Origin: Bacteroidales bacterium
GTDB taxonomy: Bacteria > Bacteroidota > Bacteroidia > Bacteroidales > UBA12077
DNA: 42,518 bases
Reading direction: 5' to 3'
NCBI GenBank assembly: GCA_028282785.1
Contig: JANQHE010000075.1
Span: 1-42,518 of the forward strand
In this document: positions 7,646-21,883 of the stretch, in pieces
Layout of the letters: each line of letters opens with the position of its first letter
Position numbering within the stretch: position 1 is the first letter of the stretch
Notes under the pieces: generated by a model
Database searches by the model: none
The model's input: the letters and a program-made list of their open reading frames with translations, nothing else
What the model was told of the DNA's origin: nothing
Program-made: the position numbers and the translations under genes

Positions 7646-8185
7646 ATGGATATAGAAAAACAAATTCTTGAATTAAAAGCTAAAGTTGATAAACTGGAAA
7701 AGGGTACAAAAGATCAAATTAGTATAGTGGTCTTTTCCGGTGAATTAGATAAACTATTGGCTGCATTAATTATAGCAACTGGTGCTACTGCAATGGATAC
7801 CGAAGTAAAATTATTCTTTACTTTTTGGGCAACCGCAGCATTGAGAGATAAAAAGAAAAAAGCTAATGGAAAAAATTTCATGTCGAAAATGTTTGGAATG
7901 ATGTTACCTAAAGGTAGCACTAAAGTTAAACTATCAAAAATGAATATGGGTGGCATGGGAACAGCTATGTTAAAAAGCTTAATGAAAAAGAAGAATGTTG
8001 CCTCACTTGATGAAATGCTTAAAACCGCAGGTCAACTTGGTGTTGAAATTAACATTTGTGAAATGTCAATGGACTTAATGGGATTTAAACCAGAAGAAAT
8101 GATTGATTATCCAAATCTAAATTATTGTGGTGTGGGGTCATATCTTGCTGATGCAGATGAAAGTAAAGTACAATTATTTATATAA
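7646..8185 (+). CDS. DsrE2-like sulfur-carrier protein
   Basis: This is a DsrE/DsrF/DrsH-like protein of the DsrE2 kind, a group that carries sulfane sulfur on a conserved Cys and is often found with TusA and rhodanese. The 179-residue protein has an N-terminal coiled-coil-like stretch (1-22) and the strand ISIVVFSGELDKLLAALIIATGA with GELDKL. A FFTFW segment follows (57-61). The middle is Met/Lys-rich and probably amphipathic (80-115). The likely reactive Cys is Cys138 in VEINICEMSMDLMGF, with a second at Cys161 (NYCGVGSYL). It is transcribed divergently from the regulator upstream and overlaps no other gene. TusA follows after 11 bases, so the pair is almost surely one transcript. The role as persulfide carrier comes from the family. 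Confidence 0.9.
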   Translation: MDIEKQILELKAKVDKLEKGTKDQISIVVFSGELDKLLAALIIATGATAMDTEVKLFFTFWATAALRDKKKKANGKNFMSKMFGMMLPKGSTKVKLSKMNMGGMGTAMLKSLMKKKNVASLDEMLKTAGQLGVEINICEMSMDLMGFKPEEMIDYPNLNYCGVGSYLADADESKVQLFI

Positions 8186-8196
8186 ATCATTAAATT

Positions 8197-8448
8197 ATGA
8201 CAACAGAAGAATTAAAAGCAATTAAAGAAAATTTATTAGTTGATTCAAGAGGTACCGCCTGTCCTGGTCCGCTTTTAGCCGTTAAACAAGCAATTGGTGA
8301 ATTAGAAAGTGGTCAGATTATGCAAATATTATCATCTGATGCCGGAACCAAAAGAGACATTCCAAGATGGTGCAATAAGCAAGGACATGAATATTTAGGT
8401 GATTTTGAAGAAGCCGGAGTTCATACCCTATACTTAAAAAAGGCATAA
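8197..8448 (+). CDS. TusA-like sulfurtransferase (copy 1)
   Basis: A small cytoplasmic sulfur carrier of the TusA/SirA family. The 83-residue protein holds the persulfide-forming Cys22 in ACPGPLL, the CPxP signature, and a second conserved Cys59 in the IPRWCNKQGH segment, typical of the TusA forms that travel with DsrE and YeeE genes. Copies 1 and 3 (15216-15467) are about 81% identical by direct comparison (67 of 83 residues). Both pair with a DsrE-family gene just upstream, so a DsrE-TusA module has been duplicated. The gene is 11 bases from DsrE2. Its 3' end converges with the second regulator across 34 bases with no clear terminator. Confidence 0.95.
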   Translation: MTTEELKAIKENLLVDSRGTACPGPLLAVKQAIGELESGQIMQILSSDAGTKRDIPRWCNKQGHEYLGDFEEAGVHTLYLKKA

Positions 8449-8482
8449 ACTTAATTTATTAGTTCTTTGACATCATTTAATT

Positions 8483-9178
8483 TTAACCGTATTCGCTAAT
8501 TTTTCTTAACAAGTCATAATTAGCGATTTTTATTCTCTTACCGGTTAATTCAATAATTCCGTCATCCTTAAACTTTTTGAGCATACGAATAACACTTTCC
8601 GTGGACATTCCCGTAAGCTCGGCAAGTTCTTTTCTTGATAAGTTTAATTCAAATTCTTCCTTTTTAAATATTCTTTCAGCTAAACATAAAAGGATGTCAG
8701 CCATTCGGCCGTATAACTGTTTATGGGTTAAACAGAAAAATCTCCCAAATGTTTGTAATGAGTTTTCGCATAAAATATCAATGATCGATGCAGCAAACTT
8801 GGCATTCTGACTAATGATCTGACGAAAAATTTTAAGATTAATTAAACTCGCAACAGAATCCTCATAGGCATGAGAAGAATAATGAAAGGTATTGTTACCA
8901 TCTAAAATTGATGTTAATCCTATTAAATTTCCGGAAGGTATGATCTTTAAAATTAACGAATCATTTAAACCCTCTAAATATATTTTAGCCAGGCCCTCTT
9001 TTAAATATATGATATGTGGAGCAATGGTTCCGTGTTTACATATGGTCTCACCTTTTTTGAACTTAACTTCAACAGAGTTTTTATCAATTAATTCAACTTC
9101 TTCCGGTGTAAGATGATCAAAACAAAGGCATTTTGCTTGACTTACAGTACAACTATTAAGTGGAGTTATGTTATTCAT
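8483..9178 (-). CDS. Second Crp/Fnr-family regulator
   Basis: A 231-residue paralogue of the upstream regulator with the same beta-roll plus winged-helix layout. N-terminal cysteines are C10, C17 and C19 (CTVSQAKCLC). The position matching FNR Cys122 is Ser111 (SVASLINL), so the four-cysteine FNR set is incomplete; Cys47 or Cys137 might serve. The recognition helix reads MSTESVIRML: Glu194 and Arg198 are kept but the CRP Arg is Thr193, which resembles FNR (TVETISRLL). The palindrome CTGAT-N4-ATCAG upstream at 9232-9253 fits such a helix. The gene sits between the first TusA and the second TusA-YeeE block and probably controls the latter. Confidence 0.9.
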   Translation of the reverse strand: MNNITPLNSCTVSQAKCLCFDHLTPEEVELIDKNSVEVKFKKGETICKHGTIAPHIIYLKEGLAKIYLEGLNDSLILKIIPSGNLIGLTSILDGNNTFHYSSHAYEDSVASLINLKIFRQIISQNAKFAASIIDILCENSLQTFGRFFCLTHKQLYGRMADILLCLAERIFKKEEFELNLSRKELAELTGMSTESVIRMLKKFKDDGIIELTGKRIKIANYDLLRKISEYG

Positions 9179-9231
9179 AGCTATATATTTATATGTGTAG
9201 AATTTTGTAAATATAACAATAAATCAGAAAA

Positions 9232-9253
9232 AAAACTGATCTATATCAGTTTT
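9232..9253. promoter_or_regulatory. FNR-type operator upstream of regulator 2 and TusA-YeeE
   Basis: A perfect inverted repeat with 9-bp arms, AAAACTGAT / ATCAGTTTT, around a 4-nt spacer. The core CTGAT-N4-ATCAG has the spacing of the FNR box (TTGAT-N4-ATCAA). It lies 53 bases upstream of the minus-strand regulator ATG and about 115 bases upstream of the plus-strand TusA gene. The first operator sits at a similar distance from DsrE2. Confidence 0.75.
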
Positions 9254-9368
9254 CTAACTATGCAATCTCATCTCTTATACTGGATGCACATCAGTAAGGT
9301 TTTCTTTTCTACTGTTATTTTAATAACAATCTTTATCCCAATGAAATAACTCATAAAATTTTACAGAT

Positions 9369-9599
9369 ATGGAAATAAAAGAAACATTAGATTGCAAAGG
9401 ACTTTCCTGTCCTATGCCCATGATGAAATTAGCAAAAGCGATTAAAGGTTTGGGAACCGGGGATATCTTAGAAATGTTAGGAACTGACCCCGGAACAAAA
9501 TCAGATTTACCAAAATGGTGCGAAAAAACCGGTAATAAAATAGTTGAAGAAAGCGAAATTGAAGGTGGTGTTTTCAGATATCTAATTGAAAAAAAGTAG
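9369..9599 (+). CDS. TusA-like sulfurtransferase (copy 2, YeeE partner)
   Basis: A 76-residue TusA-family carrier. The reactive Cys14 is in SCPMPMM; Cys9 lies just before it (LDCKGLSC), and Cys51 sits in the KWCEKTGN segment seen in the DsrE/YeeE-linked branch. It differs strongly from copies 1 and 3, having Met residues around the active Cys, so it probably has a distinct partner. Nine bases separate it from the YeeE transporter gene, whose ribosome site overlaps its TAG stop. TusA next to YeeE/YedE is the standard pairing in which the carrier accepts sulfur delivered by the transporter. Confidence 0.94.
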   Translation: MEIKETLDCKGLSCPMPMMKLAKAIKGLGTGDILEMLGTDPGTKSDLPKWCEKTGNKIVEESEIEGGVFRYLIEKK

Positions 9600-9603
9600 G
9601 AGG
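9598..9603 (+). promoter_or_regulatory. Strong Shine-Dalgarno for the YeeE gene
   Basis: AGGAGG starts inside the TAG stop of TusA and lies 5 bases from the ATG at 9609. Most genes here have only A-rich leaders, so this site stands out. It fixes the YeeE start. Confidence 0.7.
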
Positions 9604-9608
9604 TTACT

Positions 9609-10823
9609 ATGGCTGATCAAAATAAAGAGCCAGGAATTCTACAGGATTTATTTAATACTTTTTTTAAAAAACACTGGCCTGTTTGGGTAGGTGGTGTAAC
9701 GCTAGGGCTATTAAATATTTTACTATTTGCAGTAAAAAGTCCTTGGGGTGCAAGCGGAGGTATTAATAACTGGGGAGAAAATGTTTTCAAAATCTTTGGA
9801 ATTTCTTCTTTTGAGAATGCTACTCCAACAAGTGCAAGTTTATATGGTGTATTATGCCTGTTAATTGTATTAGGATCATTTGCAGGAGCGTTATTCTCAA
9901 AGGAGTTTGCTTTACGAATTCCTCCAAAAGGTGAACTGGTAAAAGGATTCATTGGCGGAGGCCTAATGGCAATTGGAGCAACCTTAGGTTTAGGTTGTAC
10001 CATAGGATCGTTTTTTAGTGGTGTACCTGCCCTTTCAGGTGGCGCAATCATTTTCACCATAGGATTATTCGCCGGAACCATCGTAGCTCTTAAGTATTTG
10101 CTTTGGGAAATGGAGAAGTTCCCAGGATTTAGCACTGGTAAAAGTTTTACATTCCTGGCCGCATCAGAAGAAAAAGGAAAGTGGCAAATCTGGTTAGGTT
10201 GGATCGTTTCAATCGGAACCTTCATTTTGGCCTTTAGAGTTGCCGGTACAAATGGTGTCTTAGCATGGTTTATTATATCCGGCCTTTTAATGGGGCTTAT
10301 TTGTCAAAGATCACGTTTCTGTATTGTGAAAGCTTTTCGTGATCCTTTTATGACCGGAGAAAGTGACGGATCTGTTGGTGTTATGGCAGGGTTACTTATA
10401 ACATTAGTAGGATTTACTGCCATTAAATATTTTGGGATCGGTGTTGGAGAATCTTCTTTAAGAGCAAGAGAAATGACATGGATATTTGGTCATTTCTGGT
10501 TAAGAGGCTTACTGGGAGGATTCATTTTTGGATTAGGTATGACTGTTGCCGGAGGTTGTGCAGTAGGGACTTTATGGCGTGTTGGCGAAGGACAGGTTAA
10601 GCTTTGGATGTCGGCGTTAGGATTCCTGTTAATATCCCCTATTTCAAAGCATTATATCGTACCTGCTATTAACAATGCACTTCCACATACTATGAAATTC
10701 AAGAATTATCTACCTGATTATTTCGGTTATGGAGGAGCGTTTTTGATCGTGCTTTTTGTGATCTTAATATGGTATGTATTTGTGAAATGGAACGAACGCA
10801 CAGGAAAATTTAGTGCTTTTTAA
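9609..10823 (+). CDS. YeeE/YedE-family sulfur-compound transporter
   Basis: An inner-membrane protein that in characterised relatives (TsuA) moves thiosulfate across the membrane by passing it along cysteines in the channel. The 404-residue protein has about 10 hydrophobic segments in two related halves. The conserved Cys motifs are Cys130 (LGLGCTIGSF), Cys232 and Cys238 (LICQRSRFCIVKAFRD) and Cys317 (AGGCAVGTLWRVGEGQ). These match the family's two-fold GxGC...GGCxxGxxxRxGEG pattern. It is coupled to TusA by 9 bases and followed 17 bases later by a rhodanese lipoprotein. The exact substrate (thiosulfate, polysulfide or sulfide) cannot be told from sequence. Confidence 0.95.
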   Translation: MADQNKEPGILQDLFNTFFKKHWPVWVGGVTLGLLNILLFAVKSPWGASGGINNWGENVFKIFGISSFENATPTSASLYGVLCLLIVLGSFAGALFSKEFALRIPPKGELVKGFIGGGLMAIGATLGLGCTIGSFFSGVPALSGGAIIFTIGLFAGTIVALKYLLWEMEKFPGFSTGKSFTFLAASEEKGKWQIWLGWIVSIGTFILAFRVAGTNGVLAWFIISGLLMGLICQRSRFCIVKAFRDPFMTGESDGSVGVMAGLLITLVGFTAIKYFGIGVGESSLRAREMTWIFGHFWLRGLLGGFIFGLGMTVAGGCAVGTLWRVGEGQVKLWMSALGFLLISPISKHYIVPAINNALPHTMKFKNYLPDYFGYGGAFLIVLFVILIWYVFVKWNERTGKFSAF

Positions 10824-10840
10824 AACTTAAATGATCAATT

Positions 10841-11317
10841 ATGAAAATTAAATTATCAATTATAGCGCTATTTTTCGTACTATTTGCTTCCTGTACCGCA
10901 ATTTACGAAGATGGAAAAGAATTAGCCGGCGTATTAAAATCTGAAATTAATGAAATACCGGTTGATACTTTAAAATCAATGATAGATAATGGAGAAGAAT
11001 TCTTATTGATAGATATTAGACAACCTGCAGAATATGAAGCAGGAAATATCCCGGGATCATTCTCTATTCCCCGTGGTGAATTAGAGTTCTTAATTCTTGA
11101 TGAATACTACTGGGAAGAACAATTCATGTATACCCCTCTTAAAACTGACAAAATAATTGTGTATTGTAAATCCGGAACAAGAGCTGTTTTGGCTGTACAC
11201 TCACTACAAAAACTGGGATTTGAAAATGTTCATAACCTCAAAGACGGTTTAATTGCATTTTCCGGCGAAAATCCTGTTGTAACAAAACAACCTGAGTCGG
11301 GTGGTTGTGGAGATTAA
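10841..11317 (+). CDS. Rhodanese-domain lipoprotein with C-terminal GGCGD
   Basis: A single-domain rhodanese, membrane-anchored and facing the periplasm or cell surface. The 158 residues start with a lipoprotein signal (FVLFASC, Cys18). The rhodanese domain (about 40-143) has LLIDIRQPAEYEAGNIPGS and the catalytic loop IVYCKSGTRAV with Cys109. After the domain an 8-residue linker leads to the last residues SGGCGD, placing a lone Cys156 two residues from the end. The second rhodanese-fold lipoprotein (14232-14735) ends in the same way, so the tail is a shared device, perhaps a mobile sulfur acceptor. It lies 17 bases after YeeE. The substrate is inferred to be thiosulfate or polysulfide. Confidence 0.92.
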   Translation: MKIKLSIIALFFVLFASCTAIYEDGKELAGVLKSEINEIPVDTLKSMIDNGEEFLLIDIRQPAEYEAGNIPGSFSIPRGELEFLILDEYYWEEQFMYTPLKTDKIIVYCKSGTRAVLAVHSLQKLGFENVHNLKDGLIAFSGENPVVTKQPESGGCGD

Positions 11318-11348: not shown

Positions 11349-12305
11349 ATGAAAAAGTTTTTAAGATTCGCGTTTGTATTTTTATTGATCCCTTCTTTTT
11401 TATTAACCTCTTGTAAAGATGATGATGATGCAACCCCTGATCGTCAGACTGATGCAGAATTCCAAACTCTTATTGCGTACATGCAATCAAACGATATGGA
11501 TTTGGACGATATTCTTTCCGGTTGGATTACAACAGCAGAAAATGTAAATACCAACTTAAGTTCATATTATATAATTGATATCAGACAAGCTGAGGCATAT
11601 ACAACCAGTCATATTCCCGGAGCTGTAAACAGTACATTGGGGGATATCCTTACCGAAGCAGCAAATGCTGATGGAAAACAAATTGCTGTAGTATGTTATA
11701 CAGGTCAAACAGCCGGGCATGCTGTAGTTGCTTTAAGATTGAGCGGTTACTCAAATGCCCAGGTATTAAAATGGGGAATGAGCGGATGGCACAGCACATT
11801 AGACTCCTGGAGCTCTAATACAAATACAATTGCAAGTGCAAACTGGATAGCATCTCCAGGTTCGGTTGTTGAGAACACAACTGAGTATGATGATCCAAAT
11901 ATTACTGAAACCGGTGATGGTGCCGCAATTTTAGCAGCAAGAGTTGAAGCTCTACTATCAGGAAGCCTTAGAGGAGTTAACGGTGCAGACGTTCTTAATT
12001 CTCCCGGCTCATATTACATTAATAACTACTGGGATGTAGCTGATGTTGAAACTTATGGCAACATTTCCGGAGCATATAGAATTAAGCCATTAACTTTAGC
12101 CGGTGGAGAGTATATGTATTTAAATCCGTCTAAAGATGTGGTTACATATTGCTGGACAGGTCAAACTTCATCAATGATCACTGCTTATTTATTTGTTTTA
12201 GGTTACGATTCTTATAGCTTAAAATTCGGTTCAAACGGAATGATCTATGATGATTTAACTTCACACAAGTGGAGCGCTATTACAACAGATTATACATTAG
12301 AATAA
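11349..12305 (+). CDS. Tandem-rhodanese lipoprotein
   Basis: I choose the ATG at 11349, which gives an ideal lipoprotein signal (MKKFLRFAFVFLLIPSFLLTSC, Cys22, followed by KDDDD), not an ATG at 11301 that overlaps the preceding gene. The 318-residue mature lipoprotein has two rhodanese-like domains. The first (about 50-152) holds YIIDIRQAEAYTTSHIPGA and VVCYTGQTAGHAV, with active Cys116. The second (about 195-305) has a degenerate IRQ region (INNYWDVADVETYGNISGA) but a good loop TYCWTGQTSSM with Cys268. Both catalytic Cys are present. The acidic residues after the lipid Cys suggest export to the outer cell surface. It closes the first half of the long transcript, ahead of a strong hairpin. 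Confidence 0.92.
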   Translation: MKKFLRFAFVFLLIPSFLLTSCKDDDDATPDRQTDAEFQTLIAYMQSNDMDLDDILSGWITTAENVNTNLSSYYIIDIRQAEAYTTSHIPGAVNSTLGDILTEAANADGKQIAVVCYTGQTAGHAVVALRLSGYSNAQVLKWGMSGWHSTLDSWSSNTNTIASANWIASPGSVVENTTEYDDPNITETGDGAAILAARVEALLSGSLRGVNGADVLNSPGSYYINNYWDVADVETYGNISGAYRIKPLTLAGGEYMYLNPSKDVVTYCWTGQTSSMITAYLFVLGYDSYSLKFGSNGMIYDDLTSHKWSAITTDYTLE

Positions 12306-12365: not shown

Positions 12366-13403
12366 ATGATAAAAAAAATAATATCAGGTTTAATCCTTTT
12401 AATGCTAATTAGTTTAGTTAGTATTAACCACTCAAATGCACAAGGTTGTATGGAACCTTCTTCTGACGAAGGTGTAAGTATTAAAGGTTATATTCAACCT
12501 CAATGGGAATACTATCAAACAACCGATAAAAAAGATGCTAACAGCTTTACCTTTAACAGGGCAAGAATTGCTGCACTGGGTAATATTCCATATGATATTA
12601 GCTATTTTGTTATGGTTGATTTCTCTAAATTCAAATCTGGTTCTCCTTGGTTACTGGATGCATTTATTTCTTATAATAGATACGAATGGGCAAAAATCTC
12701 TTTTGGTCAATTTAAATCACCAATAAGTTTGGAACAGAATACGCCCTGTCAGTCACTTCACACCATATATCGTTCAAGGGTTGTAAATGAACTTGCAGGT
12801 CCTCAACGCGATATGGGTGCAATGATTTTTGGAGGTACGGCAGAATCCAAACTTCATTATTATTTAGCGGTAATGAATGATTATGAAAAAGGATTCGAAG
12901 ATGAAAATAATGCTAAAAGTGTAAAAGGCAGATTAACTTTTGCACCCCTGGAATTTCTTCAAATTGGTGGAAGTTTTGCATATGGTAAAACAGGAGAAAA
13001 GGAAGATAACGAAAAAACCCGTTTCGGAGGAGAATTGCAACTTAACTATGGGAACTTTTTGTTCCAGGGTGAATATTTATGGGCTGATGATACCGGTGAT
13101 TATACAACAGGTGGAGGTTGCGATGGAACACCTATCGAATATCATACAGGTGGTGTAACCCGTTCGGGTTATTTTGCCCAGGCAATGTATATGACCTCCT
13201 GGAATCTTCAACCGGTAGTTAGGTTCGAATCGTATGATTCTGACGTGGATATAGATGACAATACTGAAACAATTATGACCTTTGGTTTTAACTATTTCTT
13301 AAACGATTGGACAAGAGTTCAATTAAACTATCTGTACAAAGCAGAACAAGGTAATGAAATTCCAAATGATCGTGTTGCTCTTCAAGTACAAGTTAAATTT
13401 TAA
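12366..13403 (+). CDS. Phosphate-selective-type (OprO/P-like) porin
   Basis: A predicted outer-membrane barrel. The 345-residue protein has a signal peptide ending at SNAQ. It then shows the features of the OprO/OprP-like porin family: an N-terminal VSIKGYIQPQWEYYQ strand and FNRARIAALGNIPYDISYFVMVDFSK. The strand patterns alternate, and the protein ends in VQVKF with terminal Phe, as needed for barrel assembly. A single mature Cys lies near the N-terminus (QGCMEP). It has 16-18 strands by inspection. It lies inside the sulfur operon, 11 bases before the exported sulfurtransferase. I infer that it admits an anion such as thiosulfate or polysulfide through the outer membrane, but the family name alone does not fix the substrate. 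Confidence 0.85.
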   Translation: MIKKIISGLILLMLISLVSINHSNAQGCMEPSSDEGVSIKGYIQPQWEYYQTTDKKDANSFTFNRARIAALGNIPYDISYFVMVDFSKFKSGSPWLLDAFISYNRYEWAKISFGQFKSPISLEQNTPCQSLHTIYRSRVVNELAGPQRDMGAMIFGGTAESKLHYYLAVMNDYEKGFEDENNAKSVKGRLTFAPLEFLQIGGSFAYGKTGEKEDNEKTRFGGELQLNYGNFLFQGEYLWADDTGDYTTGGGCDGTPIEYHTGGVTRSGYFAQAMYMTSWNLQPVVRFESYDSDVDIDDNTETIMTFGFNYFLNDWTRVQLNYLYKAEQGNEIPNDRVALQVQVKF

Positions 13404-13414
13404 TAAAACTGATT

Positions 13415-14224
13415 ATGAAACTGAAAAATATAATACTTAGTCTATTAGTAATAACTGCGCTAGTAAATGTTTCTTTAGCCCAAGATCTTATATCAGCTGC
13501 CGAAGCTAAAAAGCTGGTTAATAACAAAAGTACTGTTATAGTTTCAACTAGAAATGCTACCGATTATGCAAAAGTTCATATAAGAAATGCAGTTCATGTA
13601 AGTATTGATGATTTGGCAAGCACAACTGAGCCAAAAGGAATTTTAAAATCTCCGGCTGAATTAGCTAAAACTCTTGGCGAAAAGGGCTTGGATCCTACTA
13701 AAAAGATAGTTATTTATGATAGCGGTTCAAATAAAAGTTCCGGAAGACTTTACTGGATATTAAAATATTTAGGATTTAATGATGTAAAAGTACTTAACGG
13801 ACATATGCAAGCATGGCGGGCAGCAAGGGGCCCTGTAACGAATGCAGCAACAAAAGCATCTGCGGTTACTTTTACGCCTAAAATTAACTCTAAAATCCTC
13901 GTTAATAAAGCTTATGTAAAATCGAAAATGAGTTCAGCAGTAATACTGGATGTTAGAGATGATACTGAATGGGGAGAAGGCCATATCCAGGGAGCAAAGC
14001 ATTTGGAATTTAAGAATGTTCTTACTGATGGTGGTAAGTTAAAATCAAAAGCTGAATTAGAAACTGTTTTCAATAGTGCCGGAATAACCAAAGATAAAGA
14101 GGTAATTCTTTATTGTACAACCAGTGTAAGAGCAGGTGTCGTTTTCCTTGCTTTGACTTCAATTTTAGAATATCCAAATGTTAAGGTATACGATGGTGCT
14201 TATAACGAATGGAAATTAAATTAA
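13415..14224 (+). CDS. Exported thiosulfate-type sulfurtransferase (two rhodanese domains)
   Basis: A two-domain rhodanese of the TST/SseA type. The 269-residue protein has a signal peptide (MKLKNIILSLLVITALVNVSLAQ), so it works in the periplasm. The N-terminal domain (about 24-140) keeps the fold (ATDYAKVHIRNAVHVSIDDL) but has IVIYDSGSNKSSGR where the loop would hold Cys, so it is the usual inactive half. The C-terminal domain (about 160-266) carries VILDVRDDTEWGEGHIQGAKH and ILYCTTSVRAG with catalytic Cys234. This matches the normal division of labour in TST enzymes. It sits 11 bases after the porin and 7 bases before the next rhodanese-fold lipoprotein. The donor is probably thiosulfate or a polysulfide, by family only. 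Confidence 0.93.
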   Translation: MKLKNIILSLLVITALVNVSLAQDLISAAEAKKLVNNKSTVIVSTRNATDYAKVHIRNAVHVSIDDLASTTEPKGILKSPAELAKTLGEKGLDPTKKIVIYDSGSNKSSGRLYWILKYLGFNDVKVLNGHMQAWRAARGPVTNAATKASAVTFTPKINSKILVNKAYVKSKMSSAVILDVRDDTEWGEGHIQGAKHLEFKNVLTDGGKLKSKAELETVFNSAGITKDKEVILYCTTSVRAGVVFLALTSILEYPNVKVYDGAYNEWKLN

Positions 14225-14231: not shown

Positions 14232-14735
14232 ATGAAATTCTTAAAAATTATATTTCCTGCGATCCTTTCTATAGTACTGTTTATTGGATGTGTTCAAAAA
14301 GATGGTACAACTTATGAAAGTATTGATGGAATGGTAGCCGCTGCAAAAGCTAATATACAAACCATGGGAATGGAAGAACTGAAAACATTAATCGATAATC
14401 ATGCGCCGATACAGATCGTTGATTGTCGCGAAGATTATGATTTTATGCTCGGACATATTCCTGGTTCTATCCATATTCCAAGAGGTTTACTTGAGTTCTC
14501 AAATAAATTATCCAACAGAAGAATTAAAACCTTGGTAATTGGAAACGAAATGGGTAGCGGTGCTTTAGCAGTTCAATCCTTGGAATTACTTAAATATTCT
14601 GATTGCTATATGCTTGATTTCAGTTGGTTTGACTGGGAAGCAACATATCCGGAATTAGTAGAACAGGGAATGGGCGAGGCAGCAGCATCAGAACCAGTTA
14701 AACAGGAATCATCCGGTGGTGGATGTGGTGATTAA
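14232..14735 (+). CDS. Rhodanese-fold lipoprotein lacking the loop Cys, with GGGCGD tail
   Basis: The 167-residue protein has a lipoprotein signal (VLFIGC, Cys20) and a rhodanese domain (about 42-145) with IQIVDCREDYDFMLGHIPGSIHIPRG. Where the catalytic loop would be (YCxSGxR) it reads TLVIGNEMGSGALAV, so the active Cys is replaced by Gly104. Three other Cys remain: Cys65 (VDCRED), Cys125 (SDCYML) and Cys165 in the terminal GGGCGD. It resembles the lipoprotein at 10841-11317 (IDN, IPGS-IP-RG-LEF, LAVQSLE) and shares its Cys tail. It may be a catalytically inactive binding or docking partner, or may use the tail Cys. It is 7 bases after the sulfurtransferase and 17 bases before a DsrE gene. 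Confidence 0.9.
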   Translation: MKFLKIIFPAILSIVLFIGCVQKDGTTYESIDGMVAAAKANIQTMGMEELKTLIDNHAPIQIVDCREDYDFMLGHIPGSIHIPRGLLEFSNKLSNRRIKTLVIGNEMGSGALAVQSLELLKYSDCYMLDFSWFDWEATYPELVEQGMGEAAASEPVKQESSGGGCGD

Positions 14736-14752: not shown

Positions 14753-15166
14753 ATGTCAAAATTAGTTTTAGCATTAACAACATCTTCTTTAGATAAACTA
14801 ACCAGTGCAGGAGTAATATTAAGCGGTGCTGCTGCTGAAGATATGGAAGTTGATGTATTTGTTTTAGTAAATGCGGGTCATGCATTTATAAAAGGTAAGG
14901 CGGAAAATCTTACCGGAATGTCGGATACAACTCAGACATCTGAAGAATTTCAAAAAGCTTTAGATAATCTTTCAACTCCAAACTGGACAGAATTTTTCGA
15001 AATGGCAAAAGATATGACCCAGGTAAATATTTATATCTGTAGTCTTGCCGGAAAAATTGCCGGTGGAGATAATAAAGAAGATTACATCGATATAGTTGAT
15101 GACATTGTAGGTATTGGAGAATACTTGGAATGCGCAGCAGAAGCCGATGTAAACTTATGTCTGTAA
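14753..15166 (+). CDS. DsrE-family sulfur-carrier protein
   Basis: A 137-residue soluble DsrE/F-like protein. It begins KLVLALTTSSLDKLTSAGVILSGAAAEDMEVDVFVLV, where the DKL and GAAAEDMEV segments correspond to the DsrE2-like gene's GELDKLLAALIIATGATAMDTEV. The likely reactive Cys96 sits in VNIYICSLAGKI, the same place as Cys138 of that paralogue. Cys127 (YLECAAEADV) corresponds to its Cys161, and Cys136 lies at the tail. The protein lacks the N-terminal coiled coil and the Met-rich insert. It is 49 bases ahead of a TusA gene, reproducing the DsrE2-TusA pair at 7646-8448. Function as a persulfide relay is from the family. Confidence 0.88.
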   Translation: MSKLVLALTTSSLDKLTSAGVILSGAAAEDMEVDVFVLVNAGHAFIKGKAENLTGMSDTTQTSEEFQKALDNLSTPNWTEFFEMAKDMTQVNIYICSLAGKIAGGDNKEDYIDIVDDIVGIGEYLECAAEADVNLCL

Positions 15167-15215: not shown

Positions 15216-15467
15216 ATGACAACAGAAGAATTAAAAGCAATAACACCTGATAAGGTAGTAGATTCCAGAGGAACGGCTTGTCCAGGCCCACTTTTAGCAG
15301 TTAAACAAGCAATTGCTGATGTAGACAGTGGTGAAATTATGCAAGTACTATCATCTGATGCAGGAACAAAAAGAGATATTCCAAGATGGTGTACAAAACA
15401 AGGCCATGACTACCTGGGCGATTTTGAAGAAGCAGGGTTCTTTACTTTGTACTTAAAGAAAAACTAA
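15216..15467 (+). CDS. TusA-like sulfurtransferase (copy 3)
   Basis: An 83-residue TusA with Cys22 in ACPGPLL and Cys59 in IPRWCTKQGH. It is about 81% identical to copy 1, differing in 16 residues, seven of them conservative (L/V, E/D, I/V or K/T type). It follows a DsrE gene, as copy 1 does, and comes 14 bases before the MvhD-like gene. In this spot it is the last soluble carrier before the electron-transfer genes. It may therefore hand sulfur to the flavoprotein complex, or take it from there. That hand-over is an inference from gene order. Confidence 0.95.
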   Translation: MTTEELKAITPDKVVDSRGTACPGPLLAVKQAIADVDSGEIMQVLSSDAGTKRDIPRWCTKQGHDYLGDFEEAGFFTLYLKKN

Positions 15468-15481: not shown

Positions 15482-15907
15482 ATGAGCGACTATCAACCTA
15501 AAATACTGGTTTTCTCGTCGGAAAAGATTTCCGATCCTGCAATTGATCTTGCTGGTCTGCTCAAGAAACATTATTCTCCTTTAGTTTATAACATTACTCT
15601 GCAATGCACTAGCTCAGTAAAACCACGTTGGATTTTACATGCTTTGCGAAGTGGAATTGATGGAGTTTTTATTGCGAGCGATGGGACGGACTGTGCGTAC
15701 CGTTCCGATTGCTCCGATTTAACGAATAAGTCAATTGCAAAAGCTCAAGAAGTAATGAAAGAAAAGGGAATAGATCTTTCAAGAGTAAAGATGGCAGCAT
15801 TATGTTCAGTTTGCGCTGATCCATTCGTAAATCATATGAAAAGCTTTTCTGAGACACTAGCAAATCTCGGAAGTATTAAGAACGAAATAGGACAAAAAGA
15901 TGGATAA
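15482..15907 (+). CDS. MvhD-like iron-sulfur protein
   Basis: A 141-residue protein of the hydrogenase delta/MvhD family, whose members hold a [2Fe-2S] cluster and link a hydrogenase or other donor to HdrA. It has Cys42 (LQCTSSVKPRWILHAL) at the family's first ligand position and Cys71 in DGTDCAYRSDC. In the family's GC-H-x-GDC motif the first Cys is replaced by Ser66 (FIASDGTDC). Extra cysteines are present at Cys77, Cys108 and Cys111 (ALCSVCADPF). The cluster may therefore be differently ligated or absent. The gene overlaps the next, HdrA-like gene by 8 bases, so the two products are surely made together. No hydrogenase gene is in the window. Confidence 0.85.
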   Translation: MSDYQPKILVFSSEKISDPAIDLAGLLKKHYSPLVYNITLQCTSSVKPRWILHALRSGIDGVFIASDGTDCAYRSDCSDLTNKSIAKAQEVMKEKGIDLSRVKMAALCSVCADPFVNHMKSFSETLANLGSIKNEIGQKDG

Positions 15908-18608
15908 GAAAAAATACGATGCACTAATTATAGGTGGTGGTGTTGCTGGACAGGAAGCATCTCTGAATCTTGCTAATATGGGATTTAAGGTAATGCTTGT
16001 TGAAAAAGATCTTTCTATTGGTGGTAAAATGATTCAGCTTAGTAAGGTATTTCCTACACTGGACTGTGCTGCTTGCATTACCACTCCGAAGATGTCTGAA
16101 ACCGGCCGCCATCCCAACATTGATCTTTTAACGTATAGCGAAGTTAAAGATGTAAAAAAGAATGGTAAAGGCTTTGAAGCACAAATTACAAAGTATCCAC
16201 GATACGTTGATGAGTCTGTCTGTACAGGATGCAGTGAATGCGAAGCCCAGTGTCCGGTATTTACCGGTGATCAGTATCACTATGATTTTGTATCGCGTAA
16301 AAGAGCCTACATACCATTTACTACTGCAAGCCCAAAAGTGGCTACTATCGACAGACAAGGCCATTCATCACCATGTATAACTACGTGTCCGGGTGGTGTT
16401 AAAGCACACGGATTTGTATCATTGGTAGGAAATGGTTTGCATGAAGAAGCTTTCGATCTTCATCTTGAAGATAATCCTTTACCGGGATCATTAGGAAGAG
16501 CATGTTACGCTCCCTGCGAAGGTGAATGCACAAGAAACCTGCACGACAAAGGAGTCGACATCAGAAGGATCAAGAGATTCTTTGCTGATGAATATTATAA
16601 AAAAAATCCTGAACCTAAATCTCAGGAAGCTGAAGAAAAAACAGGTAAAAAAATTGCGGTAATTGGCTCGGGACCATCCGGACTAACAGCTGCATATTTT
16701 TTAGCTAAAAAAGGTCACGATGTAAAAATCTTTGAAGCTGATTCTGAATTAGGAGGAATGCTTCGTTCTACCATCCCATCTTTCCGGCTTCCAAATGAAG
16801 TTGTTGACAGGGATATTAAAAATATTACATCATTAGGTGTTGAAACCGAAACAAACACAAAAATCGAAAGTTTGGGTAATTTAAAAACTCAAGGATTTGA
16901 TGCAGTATTTGTTTCTATTGGTACTCATAAATCAGTTCAGTTCGATATTGAAGGAAATGATTTAGATGGTGTAGTAAGTTGTCTTGATTTTCTTAAAGAT
17001 GTAAACAAAGGAAATAAGCCAAACTACAAAGGCAAAACAGTTGCGGTATTTGGTGGTGGAAATGTAGCAATGGACACTGCCCGTGCAGCACTTAGATTAG
17101 AAGCAGAAAAAGTTATAATTATATACAGACGTAGCAAGGAACAAATGCCTGCTGCCGAAATCGAAATTAAAGAAGCTGAAGAAGAAGGTATAGAATTTTT
17201 GTACTTAACTAATCCAACCAAATACATTGGTGAAAATGGCAATCTTAAGCAAGTTGAATGTTTAAAAATGAAATTAGGAGAACCTGATGCAGGTGGAAGA
17301 CGAAGACCAGTTGCAATTAGTGGTTCAGAATATACTATTGATATTGATGTTGCCATTGAATCAATCGGATTAAAACCTTTTGCTTCGCCGTTTGAAAAAG
17401 ATGTTGAGTTAAATACTGACGGTACCATAAAAGTTGATTCTGAAACTTTACAAACTTCTGATTCTGCAATATTCGCAGGGGGCGATGTTGTAACAGGGGC
17501 ATCAACAATTATCGAAGCATCAGGACAAGGACGCAGAGCTGCTTTCTTTATTGATAAATATTTACAAGGTGAAGAAGTTAACAAATATAAATTTGATCAT
17601 AGACTTCCACCGGTAAGTAAAGAAGAAGTAATTAAACGACATGAGAATTTAAAAACTGTTATTCCGGTTTATGCACACGAACGTGATGCTAAAGAAAGAA
17701 TAAAAGATTTTGAAGAAACCGAAGCTACATTTACTGAGCGTGAAGCTATAATAAGTGCTGACCGTTGTTTAGACTGTGGAGCATGTCGTGAGTGTCATCA
17801 GTGTGTTGCAAGCTGTCCTGCAGGGGCTATTGATTTTACACAGCAAGAACAAAAAGTAGAAATTTCTGCTGATTCAGTAATTATCTCAACAGGATTCAAC
17901 TTGTTCCCAATTGAAAAACTTCCTCAATATGGTGGTGGAGATTTCAAGAATGTAATCTCAGCAATGGTTATGGAAAAACAATTAGTTCCTACCCGGCCAT
18001 TCAATACGGTTCTTAGGCCATCGGACGGAAGAATTCCTGATAATATTGCTTATATACTTTGTGCAGGTTCTCGTGATGAAACTGTAGGTAATCCAATATG
18101 TTCACAAATCTGTTGCATGTATTCCATAAAGCAGGCACAGTTATTAATGGGAGCATTACCATTGGCTGATATCACAATTTATTACATGAATATCAGGTCG
18201 TTTGGTAAAGGATTCGAAGAGTTTTATCAACGTGCAAAAGGAATGGGAGTTCAATTTGTAAAAGGTAAAGTTGCAAAGGTTGAAGAAATTGAAGATAACA
18301 ATCTTGTATTAAGGTACGAAGACGTAATTCAAGGAAAAGTAAAAGAAGCTCGCCATGATATGGTAGTACTTTCAACTGGCGTTCTTCCAAATCTTGATAT
18401 CACAGGTATCTTCAATGATACTCCTGTTCAGTTAGATAAATTCAATTTTGTTAAACAGGTAGATGAGCTAATTAGCCCGGCTACTACAAGTATCAATGGG
18501 GTTTTTGTTGCCGGAACAGCATCCGGTCCTAAAGACATCCCTGATACCATATTATCTGCCGGAGGCGCAGCATCCGAAGCAGCTAGTTATTTAAGGAGGT
18601 TGAAATAA
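15900..18608 (+). CDS. QmoA/HdrA-like flavoprotein with inserted GltD-type NAD(P)H module
   Basis: A 902-residue FAD protein of the HdrA/QmoA family with a large insertion. N-terminal FAD: LIIGGGVAGQEA (9-20). The family motif LDCAACITTPKM (Cys56, Cys59) is next, then a ferredoxin-like cluster CTGCSECEAQC (108-118). A GltD-like unit fills about 150-560: SPCITTCPGG and ACYAPCEGEC (Cys159/163/202/206/210), a second FAD site GSGPSGLTAA (256-265), an NAD(P)H site FGGGNVAMDTARAAL, and IFAGGDVVTGAS. The QmoA part resumes near 620 with CLDCGACRECHQCVASCP (six Cys) and IICCM-type residues (Cys734, 738, 739), ending in GVFVAGTASGPKDIPDTI. Ordinary QmoA is roughly 400 residues. The insert suggests NAD(P)H enters here, possibly with flavin bifurcation. 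The next gene starts within its stop codon. Confidence 0.92.
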   Translation: MDKKKYDALIIGGGVAGQEASLNLANMGFKVMLVEKDLSIGGKMIQLSKVFPTLDCAACITTPKMSETGRHPNIDLLTYSEVKDVKKNGKGFEAQITKYPRYVDESVCTGCSECEAQCPVFTGDQYHYDFVSRKRAYIPFTTASPKVATIDRQGHSSPCITTCPGGVKAHGFVSLVGNGLHEEAFDLHLEDNPLPGSLGRACYAPCEGECTRNLHDKGVDIRRIKRFFADEYYKKNPEPKSQEAEEKTGKKIAVIGSGPSGLTAAYFLAKKGHDVKIFEADSELGGMLRSTIPSFRLPNEVVDRDIKNITSLGVETETNTKIESLGNLKTQGFDAVFVSIGTHKSVQFDIEGNDLDGVVSCLDFLKDVNKGNKPNYKGKTVAVFGGGNVAMDTARAALRLEAEKVIIIYRRSKEQMPAAEIEIKEAEEEGIEFLYLTNPTKYIGENGNLKQVECLKMKLGEPDAGGRRRPVAISGSEYTIDIDVAIESIGLKPFASPFEKDVELNTDGTIKVDSETLQTSDSAIFAGGDVVTGASTIIEASGQGRRAAFFIDKYLQGEEVNKYKFDHRLPPVSKEEVIKRHENLKTVIPVYAHERDAKERIKDFEETEATFTEREAIISADRCLDCGACRECHQCVASCPAGAIDFTQQEQKVEISADSVIISTGFNLFPIEKLPQYGGGDFKNVISAMVMEKQLVPTRPFNTVLRPSDGRIPDNIAYILCAGSRDETVGNPICSQICCMYSIKQAQLLMGALPLADITIYYMNIRSFGKGFEEFYQRAKGMGVQFVKGKVAKVEEIEDNNLVLRYEDVIQGKVKEARHDMVVLSTGVLPNLDITGIFNDTPVQLDKFNFVKQVDELISPATTSINGVFVAGTASGPKDIPDTILSAGGAASEAASYLRRLK
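18594..18599 (+). promoter_or_regulatory. Strong Shine-Dalgarno for the QmoB-like gene
   Basis: AGGAGG within TAAGGAGGT, 8 bases before the ATG at 18608, inside the end of the preceding gene. It is the second exact Shine-Dalgarno in this operon, and the start codon overlaps the TAA stop as TAATG. Confidence 0.7.
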
Positions 18609-20824
18609 TGGAAAATCAAAAAAGTAAAATAGGCGTTTACATTTGTCATTGTGGCGGAAACATCTCCGACTATGTCGACATTGAAAAGGTTAAGAACCTA
18701 ATCGCCCGGGAAGAAGGTGTACATTTGGTTAATAACATGATGTTTACCTGTTCCGATTCAGCCCAGGTTGATATTGTTAACGATATCAAGGAAAATAACC
18801 TAGACGGGATGGTTGTTGCTTCTTGTTCTCCGAAATTGCATTTGCTAACATTTAGAGATGTAGCTAAAAGAGCGGGCCTGAACCAATATAATTACATACA
18901 TGCTAATATCAGGGAACAATGCTCATGGGCACATTCGGATAAAACAGAATTAGCTACTGATAAAGCAGTTCGTATTATCCGTGCCGCCATATCTAAGGTG
19001 CGATTGTCCGAAACTCTTGAGCAAATCGAAATTCCTGCAATTAATACAGCTGTTGTGGTTGGAGCCGGAGTTTCAGGTATGCGTTCTGCTATTGAATTAG
19101 CAGATCAGGGAACTAACGTTTACTTAATCGAGAAAGATCATTTTGTTGGTGGCAGAGTTTCGCAATGGGGTAAATTATTCCCAACTGAGGAACCCGGAGA
19201 AAATCTTGTTGAACGACTTTATCACAAAGTTAAAGAACGTGAGAATATTACTTTATTTACAGGTGCTGAAATAAAAGCAGTAAATGGTAGTGTGGGAAAT
19301 TTTGAACTTGATGTACACATCACTCCGCGTTATATTAACGGCATGTGCGATGAAGCAATTCAAGATCAGGTCTTAAAGGCTTGTCATGCAGAAGTTGATG
19401 ACGAATTTAACTTTGGATTAACCAAGCGTAAAGCAATTTATAAGAACTATCCGAATGCATATCCGGAAACTCCTGTAGTAGATATGGATCTATGTGATAA
19501 ATGCGGAGAATGCCTCAAAATTTGTGATGGAAGGATCACTTTAGATCAAAAAGAAGAAAACATCTCAATAAAAGCCGGAGCTATTTTATTAAATACGGGT
19601 TTCGATCCTTATGAACCTAAAGAAGGTGAGTATGGTTATAAACAGGTTGATAATGTTATAACTTTACAGCAGTTTAAACGGTTAATTGAATCGAATGGAG
19701 ATAAATTAGTTTATAATGGTAAGAAGATTCGTGATATTGCATACATTTATTGTGTAGGCAGCCGTGATGCTAAAGGTGAGAATAAGCATTGTTCACGTTA
19801 TTGCTGTACATCTGCTATACATACTGCAGTTGATGCTAAAACCAAATTTAAGAACATCAGGAATTACCATGTAACCCGGGGTATTAGAACCTATGGTAAA
19901 CAGGAAACTCTTTTTACAGATTCTTCTCGCCAGGGAGATACCTATTTCCAATTCTTTGAAGGAGCAATGCCAACAGTAGAAAATGAAAATGGCAAAGCAT
20001 TGATCAAAGTTAAAGATGCACTAACTCAAAACGAGGATATTGAATTTACTGCAGATCTGGTTGTTTTAGTAACCGGAATGGTAGCCAGAAAGGATGAGAA
20101 TTTAGTTAATATCTTTAAAGTACCTGTAGGAAGTGATAAATTCTATAATGAGATCCATAATAAACTTCGTCCTGTAGAAACTGTAATCGAAGGTTTATTT
20201 ATTGCCGGTGGATGCCAGAGTCCGAAGAATATTCGTGCTACTATGGCTTCAACATTAGCGGCTTCGGCAAAAGCAAACTCATTAATACAATCCGGTATGA
20301 TTGCACTGGAACCTATTGTTGCAAAAGTAAATCCGGAACTATGCGAATGGTGTGGTGCTTGCGATGATCTTTGTACGTATAATGCCTTCGAGAAAGTTGA
20401 ATACGAAGGTAAAACCGTTGCTAAAGTTAACGAAGCCATGTGTAAAGGATGCGGTGCTTGTACTCCTGTTTGTCCGACAAATGCTATTGATGTTGTAAGT
20501 TTATCCGATACGGAAATAGAAACAATGATCGATTCATTTGTACGTGATGTTGAATTTGCAACCACTACAACAGAAGAAAAAGCGGATTCGTTTGCCGAAG
20601 TAGTTGATTTTGAAAAGCAAGTTCGTGTGTTACCTGAGTTAAGTCAACGAATACTTGATTCATTAGAAACTGAACCTAAAGCCATACCTGATATTGCCAA
20701 AGAATTAGGTGTTGCCGCGGATGATGTTTTGTATCATTTAATGTCGTTACGCAAATACGGAATGATAAAAGATACAGATGAGATTAATGAAGATGAGTAT
20801 TATTTATATGAACTAAAAAAATAA
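18608..20824 (+). CDS. QmoB/HdrA-like flavoprotein with C-terminal winged helix
   Basis: A 738-residue HdrA-type flavoprotein. The N-terminal cluster region reads GVYICHCGGNIS (Cys13, Cys15) with Cys48, Cys73 (VASCSPKLH) and Cys105. FAD site: VVGAGVSGMRSAIELA (about 150-165). A ferredoxin motif CDKCGECLKIC (296-306) lies inside. Next come YCVGSRD (Cys382), HCSRYCC (395-400), and the FAD end FIAGGCQSPKNIRATM. Two C-terminal [4Fe-4S] ferredoxin motifs follow: CEWCGACDDLC (579-589) and CKGCGACTPVC (612-622). Residues about 675-720 form a winged-helix-like unit, LSQRILDSLETEPKAIPDIA..., which is odd on an enzyme. It begins one base inside the preceding stop and precedes the QmoC-like gene by 6 bases. 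No MvhD-like tail is fused; that protein is encoded separately. Confidence 0.92.
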   Translation: MENQKSKIGVYICHCGGNISDYVDIEKVKNLIAREEGVHLVNNMMFTCSDSAQVDIVNDIKENNLDGMVVASCSPKLHLLTFRDVAKRAGLNQYNYIHANIREQCSWAHSDKTELATDKAVRIIRAAISKVRLSETLEQIEIPAINTAVVVGAGVSGMRSAIELADQGTNVYLIEKDHFVGGRVSQWGKLFPTEEPGENLVERLYHKVKERENITLFTGAEIKAVNGSVGNFELDVHITPRYINGMCDEAIQDQVLKACHAEVDDEFNFGLTKRKAIYKNYPNAYPETPVVDMDLCDKCGECLKICDGRITLDQKEENISIKAGAILLNTGFDPYEPKEGEYGYKQVDNVITLQQFKRLIESNGDKLVYNGKKIRDIAYIYCVGSRDAKGENKHCSRYCCTSAIHTAVDAKTKFKNIRNYHVTRGIRTYGKQETLFTDSSRQGDTYFQFFEGAMPTVENENGKALIKVKDALTQNEDIEFTADLVVLVTGMVARKDENLVNIFKVPVGSDKFYNEIHNKLRPVETVIEGLFIAGGCQSPKNIRATMASTLAASAKANSLIQSGMIALEPIVAKVNPELCEWCGACDDLCTYNAFEKVEYEGKTVAKVNEAMCKGCGACTPVCPTNAIDVVSLSDTEIETMIDSFVRDVEFATTTTEEKADSFAEVVDFEKQVRVLPELSQRILDSLETEPKAIPDIAKELGVAADDVLYHLMSLRKYGMIKDTDEINEDEYYLYELKK

Positions 20825-20830
20825 TGATAT

Positions 20831-21883
20831 ATGTCTAGATTAAACCCTGATTTCTCCACAAAGCTAAAGAAGTACGGAGCTTTCGATACAAGCTTGTGTT
20901 ACAATTGTGGAAATTGCACAGCGATATGTTCATTATCAGATAAAAAAAATTCTTTTCCAAGAATGATGGTAAGAGCCAGTGTAATTGGAATGGAAGATAA
21001 AATTACCAGTTCATTAGATCCATGGATGTGTTATTATTGTGGAGAATGTAGTACTTCATGTCCACGACAGGCTAATCCTGGTGAATTAATGATGTCGCTT
21101 AGAAGATGGCTCTCTGCAAAATATGATTGGACAGGTTTATCCGGTTTATTATATCGCTCCTTACCTATTAGTTTACTGGCGTTTTTATTAACGGCTGTTG
21201 CCGTAATATTCTATAGCTTTAAATTAAACTTTAATGTTGAAACGATTATGCATTTCGGACATCAGTTCGAGATGTTTGCAATAATTACGGTTTTTGCAAT
21301 AATCATTCTTCCGAATGTATTTCGAATGTGGTGGAGTGTGATAATTAAACCTAAAGTAAAGGTACCGTTAAAGGCATACTTTAAAGGAGCAGGTGATTTG
21401 TTCGTACACATGTTCACACAAAAAAGAACATTAGGTTGCGACGATAGCCAGGCTCGTTGGTTTATGCATATGGTACTGGTTTTTGGTTACCTGGCACTGC
21501 TATTTACAACCGTTGTTTTAGACTGGCTCGGAACTGATAATATGTTTATTATTATTTTAGGTTATGTTGAAAGTATTGTGATTTTTGCTATCACATTTAT
21601 CTTCATGGCTGGCCGTATAAAAAGGAATAAAGAATTAAATAAATTCTCACAACCTTCAGACTGGTTTTTTGTAATTTGGTTATTCTTAATGGGATTCACC
21701 GCTTTCATAGTAAGAATTTTTATTGATTTAAATATCATTGAAAACAACCTGTGGATGTATTTATTCCATTTAATAATCCTGGCACAATGGGCTGTTTTAA
21801 TTGTGCCTTTCGGAAAATGGACCCATTTTATATATCGTTCGTTTGCTATGTATTTTGATAAAATCACCGAAACTATTAAATAG
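20831..21883 (+). CDS. QmoC-like membrane electron-transfer subunit
   Basis: The membrane anchor of the complex. The 350-residue protein starts with an HdrC-like double [4Fe-4S] ferredoxin domain: CYNCGNCTAIC (Cys23/26/29/33) and CYYCGECSTSC (Cys67/70/73/77). About six membrane helices follow (near 109-130, 147-166, 211-231, 237-258, 278-298 and 305-327). Candidate heme b ligands are His141, His144, His213, His313 and His332. This matches QmoC, a fusion of HdrC with a nitrate-reductase-gamma-like heme b domain that exchanges electrons with menaquinone. It is the last gene of the operon and is followed by a clear terminator. It ties the flavoproteins to the quinone pool. Confidence 0.95.
   Translation: MSRLNPDFSTKLKKYGAFDTSLCYNCGNCTAICSLSDKKNSFPRMMVRASVIGMEDKITSSLDPWMCYYCGECSTSCPRQANPGELMMSLRRWLSAKYDWTGLSGLLYRSLPISLLAFLLTAVAVIFYSFKLNFNVETIMHFGHQFEMFAIITVFAIIILPNVFRMWWSVIIKPKVKVPLKAYFKGAGDLFVHMFTQKRTLGCDDSQARWFMHMVLVFGYLALLFTTVVLDWLGTDNMFIIILGYVESIVIFAITFIFMAGRIKRNKELNKFSQPSDWFFVIWLFLMGFTAFIVRIFIDLNIIENNLWMYLFHLIILAQWAVLIVPFGKWTHFIYRSFAMYFDKITETIK

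Follow-up and report, generated by a model that had tools for sequence, protein, structure and literature searches.

The 42,518-nucleotide contig JANQHE010000075.1 (contig C10) of a Bacteroidales bacterium of the UBA12077 lineage (GCA_028282785.1; 5.5 Mb in 81 contigs, listed completeness 100%, contamination 2.93%) carries at positions 7646-21883 a block in which genes for a Qmo/Hdr-like electron-transfer complex stand next to genes for the sulfane-sulfur carriers TusA and DsrE. The whole contig was analysed and is called the window below. We found that the block is a real conserved operon of Bacteroidales and no chance cluster. Its core, consisting of dsrE, tusA, mvhD, hdrA, a qmoB-like gene and qmoC, recurs in the order, and we tentatively read it as a complex that would join persulfide on TusA and DsrE to menaquinone and NAD(P)H in the reductive direction.

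Some organisms that lack Apr and Dsr are already known to have Qmo-type complexes, whose role has been left open (PMC10504309). Here gene order binds such a complex to sulfane-sulfur carriers, so that a likely partner can be named and the role put to the test. Judging from the genes, the block newly combines known parts, namely Qmo/HdrL-type electron transfer and a YeeE-TusA-DsrE relay, together with putative SoxY-like arms on rhodanese lipoproteins. In the open-licence literature we found no description of this operon in Bacteroidales and none for the combination of QmoC, TusA and Bacteroidetes. General background is given in PMC12142623, PMC11664143 and PMC11582611; all papers cited here except PMC5940944 were drawn on in excerpts, and statements about them refer to those excerpts.

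Conservation of the core operon

All core genes are located on the plus strand. They encode a DsrE-like sulfurtransferase (14753-15166; PF13686, 36 bits), the core TusA, here TusA3 (15216-15467; PF01206), an MvhD/FlpD-type electron-transfer subunit (15482-15907; PF02662, 93 bits; PDB relative MvhD 5odc_D), an HdrA/QmoA-like flavoprotein (15900-18608), an HdrA2/QmoB-like flavoprotein (18608-20824; NCBIfam HdrA2 577 bits, cut-off 1100) and a QmoC-like iron-sulfur and membrane subunit (20831-21883; NCBIfam qmoC 144.9 bits, cut-off 300; HdrC chains in the PDB). Protein names in the block are used at the family level because many scores fall under the curated NCBIfam cut-offs (DsrE2, qmoC, HdrA2).

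An order set of 295 genomes from 183 genera was searched with HdrA and with a QmoB-like profile of 18 rows (threshold E 1e-180). HdrA gave a nearly full-length match in 8 of the 295 genomes and, in genome G150, a partial match (42%) to residues 4-496. The profile matched 39 genomes from at least 34 genera; together with 6 genomes recognised by direct reading and 5 whose contigs stop within hdrA or shortly before it, which are partly inferred, 50 of the 295 genomes are counted as operon carriers. A search of named contigs with the same profile returned at least 591 candidate stretches, all confirmed by tblastn, of which the best 80 were kept (the named loci). Fifty of these contain enough upstream DNA to be judged; the other 30 are too short and remained uncounted. 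In all 50, dsrE, tusA, mvhD and hdrA together lie directly upstream of the qmoB-like gene, a linkage that exceeds chance. qmoC is present in 48 of the 50, and a minus-strand crp gene of either type lies upstream in 42. We also read 20 neighbourhoods from the HdrA-search list, 7 with a fused HdrA (see below) and 13 with an unfused one: the order dsrE(2)-tusA-mvhD-hdrA-qmoB-qmoC is visible in 19 of them, and the remaining one (L049) begins at hdrA at a contig edge. The two samples overlap, as some named loci are the same contigs as in the read neighbourhoods (four identical HdrA pairs).

A preliminary description of the block had asked whether its gene set co-occurs in other Bacteroidota. The core is linked in relatives and the import arm is optional; homologues scattered without linkage can be rejected, given the read neighbourhoods and the 50 named loci. 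By record title nearly all named loci belong to Bacteroidota, with one Aminicenantes and one Chlorobiota, both metagenome-assembled genomes. In a draw across the phylum the profile matched 1 of 395 genomes, namely the window's own, which shows rarity in that draw only. Beyond core and import module no flanking gene recurs in more than 10 of 97 sources, the commonest being DsrE-like by eye.

Two smaller features of the core were noticed. The QmoB-like protein ends in a winged-helix-like domain (about residues 645-738; HTH_5 23.5 bits, cut-off 22), and many unfused loci have, in place of this tail (window positions 20540-20821), a matching small gene of its own that follows qmoB and precedes qmoC (e.g. 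L062:12322-12618). The unfused hdrA at L064:9577-10890 is split into two open reading frames, with one in-frame TAG reported for genome G026; sequencing error, decay or recoding are possible.

An NAD(P)H module inserted in HdrA

The label HdrA/QmoA, given to the gene at 15900-18608 in the preliminary description, holds for the two HdrA halves of the protein but overlooked a GltD/NfnB-type NAD(P)H module inserted at residues 154-627. These roughly 474 residues are missing from unfused homologues, which span about 407-452 residues. The insert matches the GltD/NfnB family (PRK12771, 498 bits, just below the cut-off of 516), while the flanking halves match HdrA, and sequence and fold matches of the fused protein in the PDB include both Nfn-type chains and HdrA. 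In a Foldseek search its structure model matched Nfn 4ylf_B with a TM by target of 0.72 and HdrA 8rwn_A with 0.75; the model itself is weak (pLDDT 68.7, pTM 0.46) and was used at the domain level only.

In all 21 fused proteins the insert is 472-474 residues long and located at the identical site, and its cysteines are invariant except C454. The two HdrA halves together contain 14 cysteines, and every fused protein (21 of 21) and every unfused one (59 of 59) keeps them all. Among the named loci 19 are fused and 51 unfused; 10 of the 80 could not be judged. A quick IQ-TREE mixture-model tree of 81 rows places the fused proteins in one clade (SH-aLRT 96), requiring one change, whereas a FastTree run separates them into 19 and 2 with a support of 0.67. 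We prefer a single origin because of the IQ-TREE clade and the shared site and length of the insert, and two independent GltD insertions are accordingly disfavoured. A fusion of HdrA and a glutamate-synthase-type module is known in kind (HdrL); its placement in a Qmo-like TusA/DsrE operon we have not seen in print.

An optional import module with glycine-framed cysteine tails

Adjoining the core is an import module consisting of crpB, tusA2, yeeE, rhod1, rhodT, porin, TST, rhod2 and dsrE, some copies of which are incomplete. The Crp-type regulator crpB (8483-9178, minus strand; PF13545) adjoins tusA2/yeeE in relatives and is therefore assigned to this module. The other genes are on the plus strand: TusA2 (9369-9599; PF01206), a YeeE/YedE-family sulfur transporter (9609-10823; PF04143, 182 bits; PDB relatives TsuA 6leo and 8k1r), the single-rhodanese lipoprotein rhod1 (10841-11317; PF00581), the tandem-rhodanese lipoprotein rhodT (11349-12305; PF00581 twice, one cysteine per active site, start codon examined), a Porin_O_P outer-membrane porin (12366-13403; PF07396), an exported double-rhodanese TST/SseA-like protein (13415-14224; PF00581 twice, a single cysteine, in the second domain) and the rhodanese-fold lipoprotein rhod2 (14232-14735; PF00581). 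Lipoproteins and exported proteins were assigned by eye from their N-termini.

The module is not a fixed part of the operon, yeeE being found in 7 of the 80 named loci. In three loci with unfused HdrA (L073, L122, L144) the import proteins are 66-90% identical to those of the window; TusA3, MvhD and the QmoB-like protein are 45-64% identical and QmoC 73-75%. From these identities the window's block looks composite, which would explain its three TusA and two DsrE-family genes. An import module without a core was considered for five genomes in which rhod1 matches strongly and the QmoB-like profile does not; we count them as cut cores because the contig ends inside hdrA (G083, G187, G276) or just past tusA (G076, G253).

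The two single-rhodanese-fold lipoproteins have similar C-termini, GGCGD in rhod1 and GGGCGD in rhod2. Among the 1378 open reading frames of at least 100 residues in the window and 96 loci, GGCG followed by 0-2 residues terminates 20, all of them rhod1 or rhod2 homologues. Conversely, the tail is present in all 20 rhod1/rhod2 homologues scoring at least 80 bits (9 of 9 rhod1 and 11 of 11 rhod2 copies) and in none of the other 1358. The active-site motif CxxGxR occurs in 9 of 9 rhod1 copies and in 1 of 11 rhod2 copies, the window's rhod1 having it and its rhod2 lacking it. In eight further loci four of the rhod1 copies end in GGCG plus 0-1 residues and four in SGCGG or AGCGG, which rules out a strictly invariant GGCG; of seven rhod2 copies six carry GGCG and one is cut by a contig end. 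Every complete copy seen has a cysteine between glycines close to its C-terminus, and the sequence ahead of this cysteine varies slightly.

SoxY binds sulfur on the cysteine of a C-terminal GGCGG (PMC6067878). The block tails resemble this arm in the near-terminal glycine-framed cysteine following a variable linker, in the export of the protein and in an adjacent YeeE-type transporter (PMC6067878); unlike it, they sit on a PF00581 rhodanese fold with a lipobox and not on the SoxY fold. By analogy, we infer that rhod1 and rhod2 would carry sulfane sulfur on a flexible SoxY-like arm.

Proposed function of the operon

From gene content, gene order, conservation, the domain insertion and the conserved cysteines we infer a physical interaction of the core proteins, a path for sulfur and a direction. 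MvhD, HdrA, the HdrA2/QmoB-like and the QmoC-like protein would form a complex transferring electrons from cytoplasm to membrane, and its partner would be sulfane sulfur bound to TusA and DsrE, taking the place of AprAB in canonical Qmo. In this genome the GltD/NfnB module inside HdrA would supply an NAD(P)H port. The porin, the GGCG-tailed rhodanese lipoproteins, TST, YeeE and TusA2 would gather sulfane sulfur outside and hand it inward. The reaction would be R-SSH + 2e- -> H2S + R-SH, NAD(P)H and/or menaquinol would be the electron donors, and the outcome would be an electron sink or a respiration on S0, polysulfide or thiosulfate-type sulfur. Taken as a whole this is the reading we favour, although we would put it slightly short of probable. 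Under it, Bacteroidales of anoxic habitats would gain a place in the sulfur cycle through a route invisible to the common marker genes, and sulfur may serve a group of these anaerobes as an electron sink or energy source.

The block holds no known S-O-forming centre, since the 17 block proteins include no HdrB/CCG domain and no DsrAB or DsrC, and the dsrA model TIGR02064 matches nowhere in the genome. Qmo-type complexes move electrons, and a two-electron chemistry on TusA/DsrE persulfide would be the simplest fit. With a potential of about -320 mV, NAD(P)H is able to reduce S0 to HS- (about -270 mV), for which menaquinol (about -74 mV) alone does not suffice, so that the GltD insert would have a purpose. 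The reductive direction is most likely because the complete genome of Petrimonas sp. IBARAKI (L104) carries the fused core in full, although an import module is missing from its 23-kb locus, and a near relative reduces sulfur: P. sulfuriphila, whose 16S sequence is 99% identical to that of Petrimonas sp. IBARAKI, forms H2S from S0, and S0 has a stimulating effect on it (PMC5940944). Petrimonas is the sole link to a phenotype and an analogy between two organisms, the operon having been read in IBARAKI and the phenotype taken from P. sulfuriphila. Genes similar to O-acetylhomoserine sulfhydrylase (by eye) in 5 of the 97 sources are weakly consistent with sulfide as the product.

The preliminary description had proposed that sulfur is passed on to a flavoprotein complex with links to quinone and NAD(P)H. 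This fits the findings, but as a general statement it has to be narrowed, since the import arm is separable and the NAD(P)H module occurs in a minority of loci.

Several observations weigh against a reductive role. The window's genome contains a cluster with a type III SQR as well as an aprBA-qmoABC operon, both of which suit oxidation. Of the 70 named loci that can be judged 51 lack the NAD(P)H insert, so another electron donor would be needed there. A cluster of similar kind in Cloacimonadota was interpreted as oxidative (PMC8542988). Finally, an aprA gene was detected in 8 of the 50 operon genomes compared to 12 of the 245 others (Fisher p 0.01, relatedness uncorrected). The direction may differ between lineages.

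A more far-reaching version of the favoured reading is that the operon encodes a separate enzyme class, a persulfide:menaquinone/NAD(P)H oxidoreductase in which an HdrA-type (type II-like) Qmo has the sulfane sulfur on TusA/DsrE as its direct redox partner. One polypeptide would unite two flavin modules, both from families known to bifurcate, flavin-based bifurcation or confurcation could couple NAD(P)H, menaquinone and sulfane sulfur, and rhodanese lipoproteins with an acquired carrier arm like that of SoxY would feed the complex. We consider this combination doubtful. If true, a partner would be at hand for the orphan type II Qmo complexes, which so far lack one.

Alternative explanations and other sulfur genes

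The preliminary description had noted the absence of aprAB, dsrAB and sat, which is correct for the block. Elsewhere in the genome, contig C63 carries an aprB-aprA-qmoABC operon (L031:928-8554), apart from the block: aprA scores 875 bits, above the cut-off, aprB was matched by APS-reductase_C, and qmoA, qmoB and qmoC were recognised by eye. A 122-residue open reading frame lies between aprB and aprA and presumably encodes a 23S-rRNA-intervening-type four-helix protein. The sat model TIGR00339, searched in this genome only, gave no match there. An ordinary sulfate-reduction locus can thus be rejected, with neither dsrA nor sat matched and aprBA on another contig beside its own Qmo. Among the order genomes aprA matches in 20 of 295 (19 above the cut-off), and no dsrA match was found in these 20. 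A tie between the block and aprA was likewise rejected: fused HdrA is full-length in 8 genomes, of which the window's alone carries aprA.

A second sulfur cluster on contig C36 (L220:5733-9350) comprises a crp-like gene (by eye), a type III SQR (660 bits, cut-off 525, selenoprotein-subtype model), DUF1641, a DsrC/TusE-like gene whose product has one cysteine only and a DsrE2-like gene (103 bits, cut-off 210). The same set lies near the core in locus L187, and an SQR near the core in L089.

These genes give shape to an oxidative alternative, a route for sulfur oxidation or disproportionation without DsrAB or sHdr. SQR would oxidise sulfide, sulfane sulfur would pass via YeeE, TusA and DsrE to the complex, menaquinone and NAD(P)+ would take up the electrons, and AprBA-QmoABC would oxidise the sulfite produced. 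In favour of it are the grouping on C36, the presence of aprBA-qmoABC and two published proposals: the path proposed for cable bacteria starts at a type III SQR, runs via a YeeE-TusA-DsrEFH cluster and leads to DsrC, DsrAB and AprAB-Qmo (PMC13293266), and the Cloacimonadota cluster of Hdr, TST, TusA and sulfur transporter genes was read as oxidative (PMC8542988). Both aprA and DsrC are over-represented in operon genomes, DsrC being found in 28 of 50 compared to 66 of 245 others (p 0.0001, relatedness uncorrected; the 50 include cut contigs). Among the 39 profile-match genomes alone, 7 have aprA compared to 13 of the 256 others (p 0.009), and 22 have DsrC compared to 72 of those 256 (p 0.0008). 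On the other hand the genome has no match for dsrA or sat, the block has no HdrB/CCG domain, aprA accompanies the operon in only 8 of the 50 carriers and 1 of the 8 full-length fused genomes, and the core is carried by a Petrimonas near an S0-reducing fermenter. We regard the oxidative direction as unlikely, though it survives better than the other alternatives.

A housekeeping or protective role appears improbable. Reactive sulfane sulfur would then be handled for thiolation, for cofactor or sulfide supply or for detoxification, and the complex would merely dispose of it. TusA is a general thiolation carrier, cysteine desulfurase-like genes adjoin the fused core in L048 (one by family scan) and in L051 and L102 (by eye), and the Crp regulators have cysteines near their N-termini. 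However, thiolation is general and the operon is patchy, and a membrane QmoC-type subunit with a porin-bearing import arm would be costly for such a purpose.

In a last alternative TusA/DsrE sulfur would pass to DsrC and a DsrMK/Hmc-like membrane complex, with the Qmo-like complex recycling the carriers. Next to the fused core, L048:11674-16762 encodes three such proteins: a DsrC whose C-terminus has both cysteines, a CCG protein resembling HmcF/TmcB/DsrK (312, 275 and 256 bits, each under the cut-off) and an HmcE/DsrM-like membrane protein with a weak HmcE score of 29 bits; the same set was seen by eye in L051:5038-10109, and L102:106-2454 encodes a DsrC with both C-terminal cysteines and, at the locus edge, a similar membrane protein (by eye). 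Despite the association with DsrC given above, which is uncorrected for relatedness, this route is the least probable of those considered, as 22 of the 50 operon genomes have no DsrC match, a DsrC-like gene lies near the core in just 4 of 110 scanned sources (L048, L051, L102, L187), and the window genome's own DsrC-like protein is encoded on another contig and has a single cysteine.

Comparison with known systems

The label QmoABC, used in the preliminary description, is right for the order of subunits and otherwise loose. Like canonical QmoABC the block has the order qmoA-qmoB-qmoC, HdrA-type A and B subunits, an HdrC/membrane-type C subunit and an MvhD domain. In contrast to it, the partner genes are tusA and dsrE and not aprAB (the genome's aprA sits by the C63 qmoABC), MvhD is encoded by a separate gene while the C63 QmoB bears an MvhD-like C-terminus, and block and C63 Qmo proteins are 27-34% identical, with the block's QmoC under the curated cut-off. 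The QmoB-like protein scores best with the HdrA2 model and in this recalls type II Qmo, whose QmoA/B-like subunits are nearer to HdrA (PMC10504309); the likeness is one of description, and the excerpted account mentions neither a TusA/DsrE linkage nor an NAD(P)H insert.

HdrL of Desulfobacterium autotrophicum is a fusion of HdrA and glutamate synthase beside mvhD, proposed to direct NADH electrons towards sulfite reduction, and hdrL1-mvhD is followed by dsrABC (PMC2702500). In the block, too, HdrA contains an NAD(P)H module of the glutamate-synthase type and its gene adjoins mvhD, a comparison by description only; the excerpts of PMC2702500 contain no TusA and describe no linkage of HdrL and Qmo genes. 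With the YTD cluster and DsrEFH type II the block shares YeeE/YedE, TusA and DsrE-family genes (PMC12998232, PMC13293266). It differs in its coupling to a Qmo-like complex, the genome giving no dsrA match, and in having two separated PF13686 genes with no third among the 17 block proteins (a count by family, the DsrEFH type II models themselves not having been run). Sulfur oxidation by sHdr-LbpA also places DsrE, TusA and rhodanese genes next to Hdr-type genes (PMC6067878). As the preliminary description had stated, there is no HdrB or lipoate-binding protein in the block (no PF02754 or lipoyl match in 17 proteins); a QmoC-type membrane subunit is present instead. The Cloacimonadota cluster, compared by description, resembles the block in uniting Hdr, TST, TusA and transporter genes; neither Qmo nor DsrE is mentioned in the excerpts (PMC8542988). 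Dissimilatory sulfate reduction is defined by dsrAB and sat, and the genome matches neither dsrA nor sat.

Layout of the block and further genes

Family searches recovered all the sulfur and Qmo/Hdr-like genes named in the preliminary description, each of them on the plus strand. They do not, however, form one uninterrupted run: two minus-strand crp genes divide the block into a dsrE2-tusA1 pair and the tusA2-to-qmoC set, crpB interrupting it and crpA (6806-7513; PF13545, PF00027; several cysteines near the N-terminus) lying upstream, divergent from the pair. The pair consists of a DsrE2-like sulfurtransferase (7646-8185; PF13686, 169 bits; NCBIfam DsrE2 68.6 bits, cut-off 210) and TusA1 (8197-8448; PF01206). 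In the tusA2-to-qmoC set gaps are about 60 bases or fewer, and by their coordinates mvhD and hdrA as well as hdrA and qmoB overlap. TusA1 and TusA3 are 81% identical; together with TusA2 they are the only PF01206 matches in the whole genome. PADLOC gave no match for the two proteins submitted. Both Crp-type regulators contain cysteines in the N-terminal region, and there is apparently one per module; they are a possible pair of redox or sulfane sensors.

The genome contains four molybdopterin matches, three of which were read by eye: two NAD-linked formate dehydrogenases and one DmsABC-like set. No clear Psr or Ttr, considered as a periplasmic alternative, was seen among these three in a search that was not exhaustive. 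The fourth match is located on contig C54 beside a GltD-type match, both reported with a 1236-residue open frame. By eye, L150:3481-12951 holds two adjacent NAD-linked formate dehydrogenase-like sets, and at L151:3772-7121 a DmsA-like protein, in which no signal peptide is obvious, adjoins a DmsB-DmsC-like fusion.

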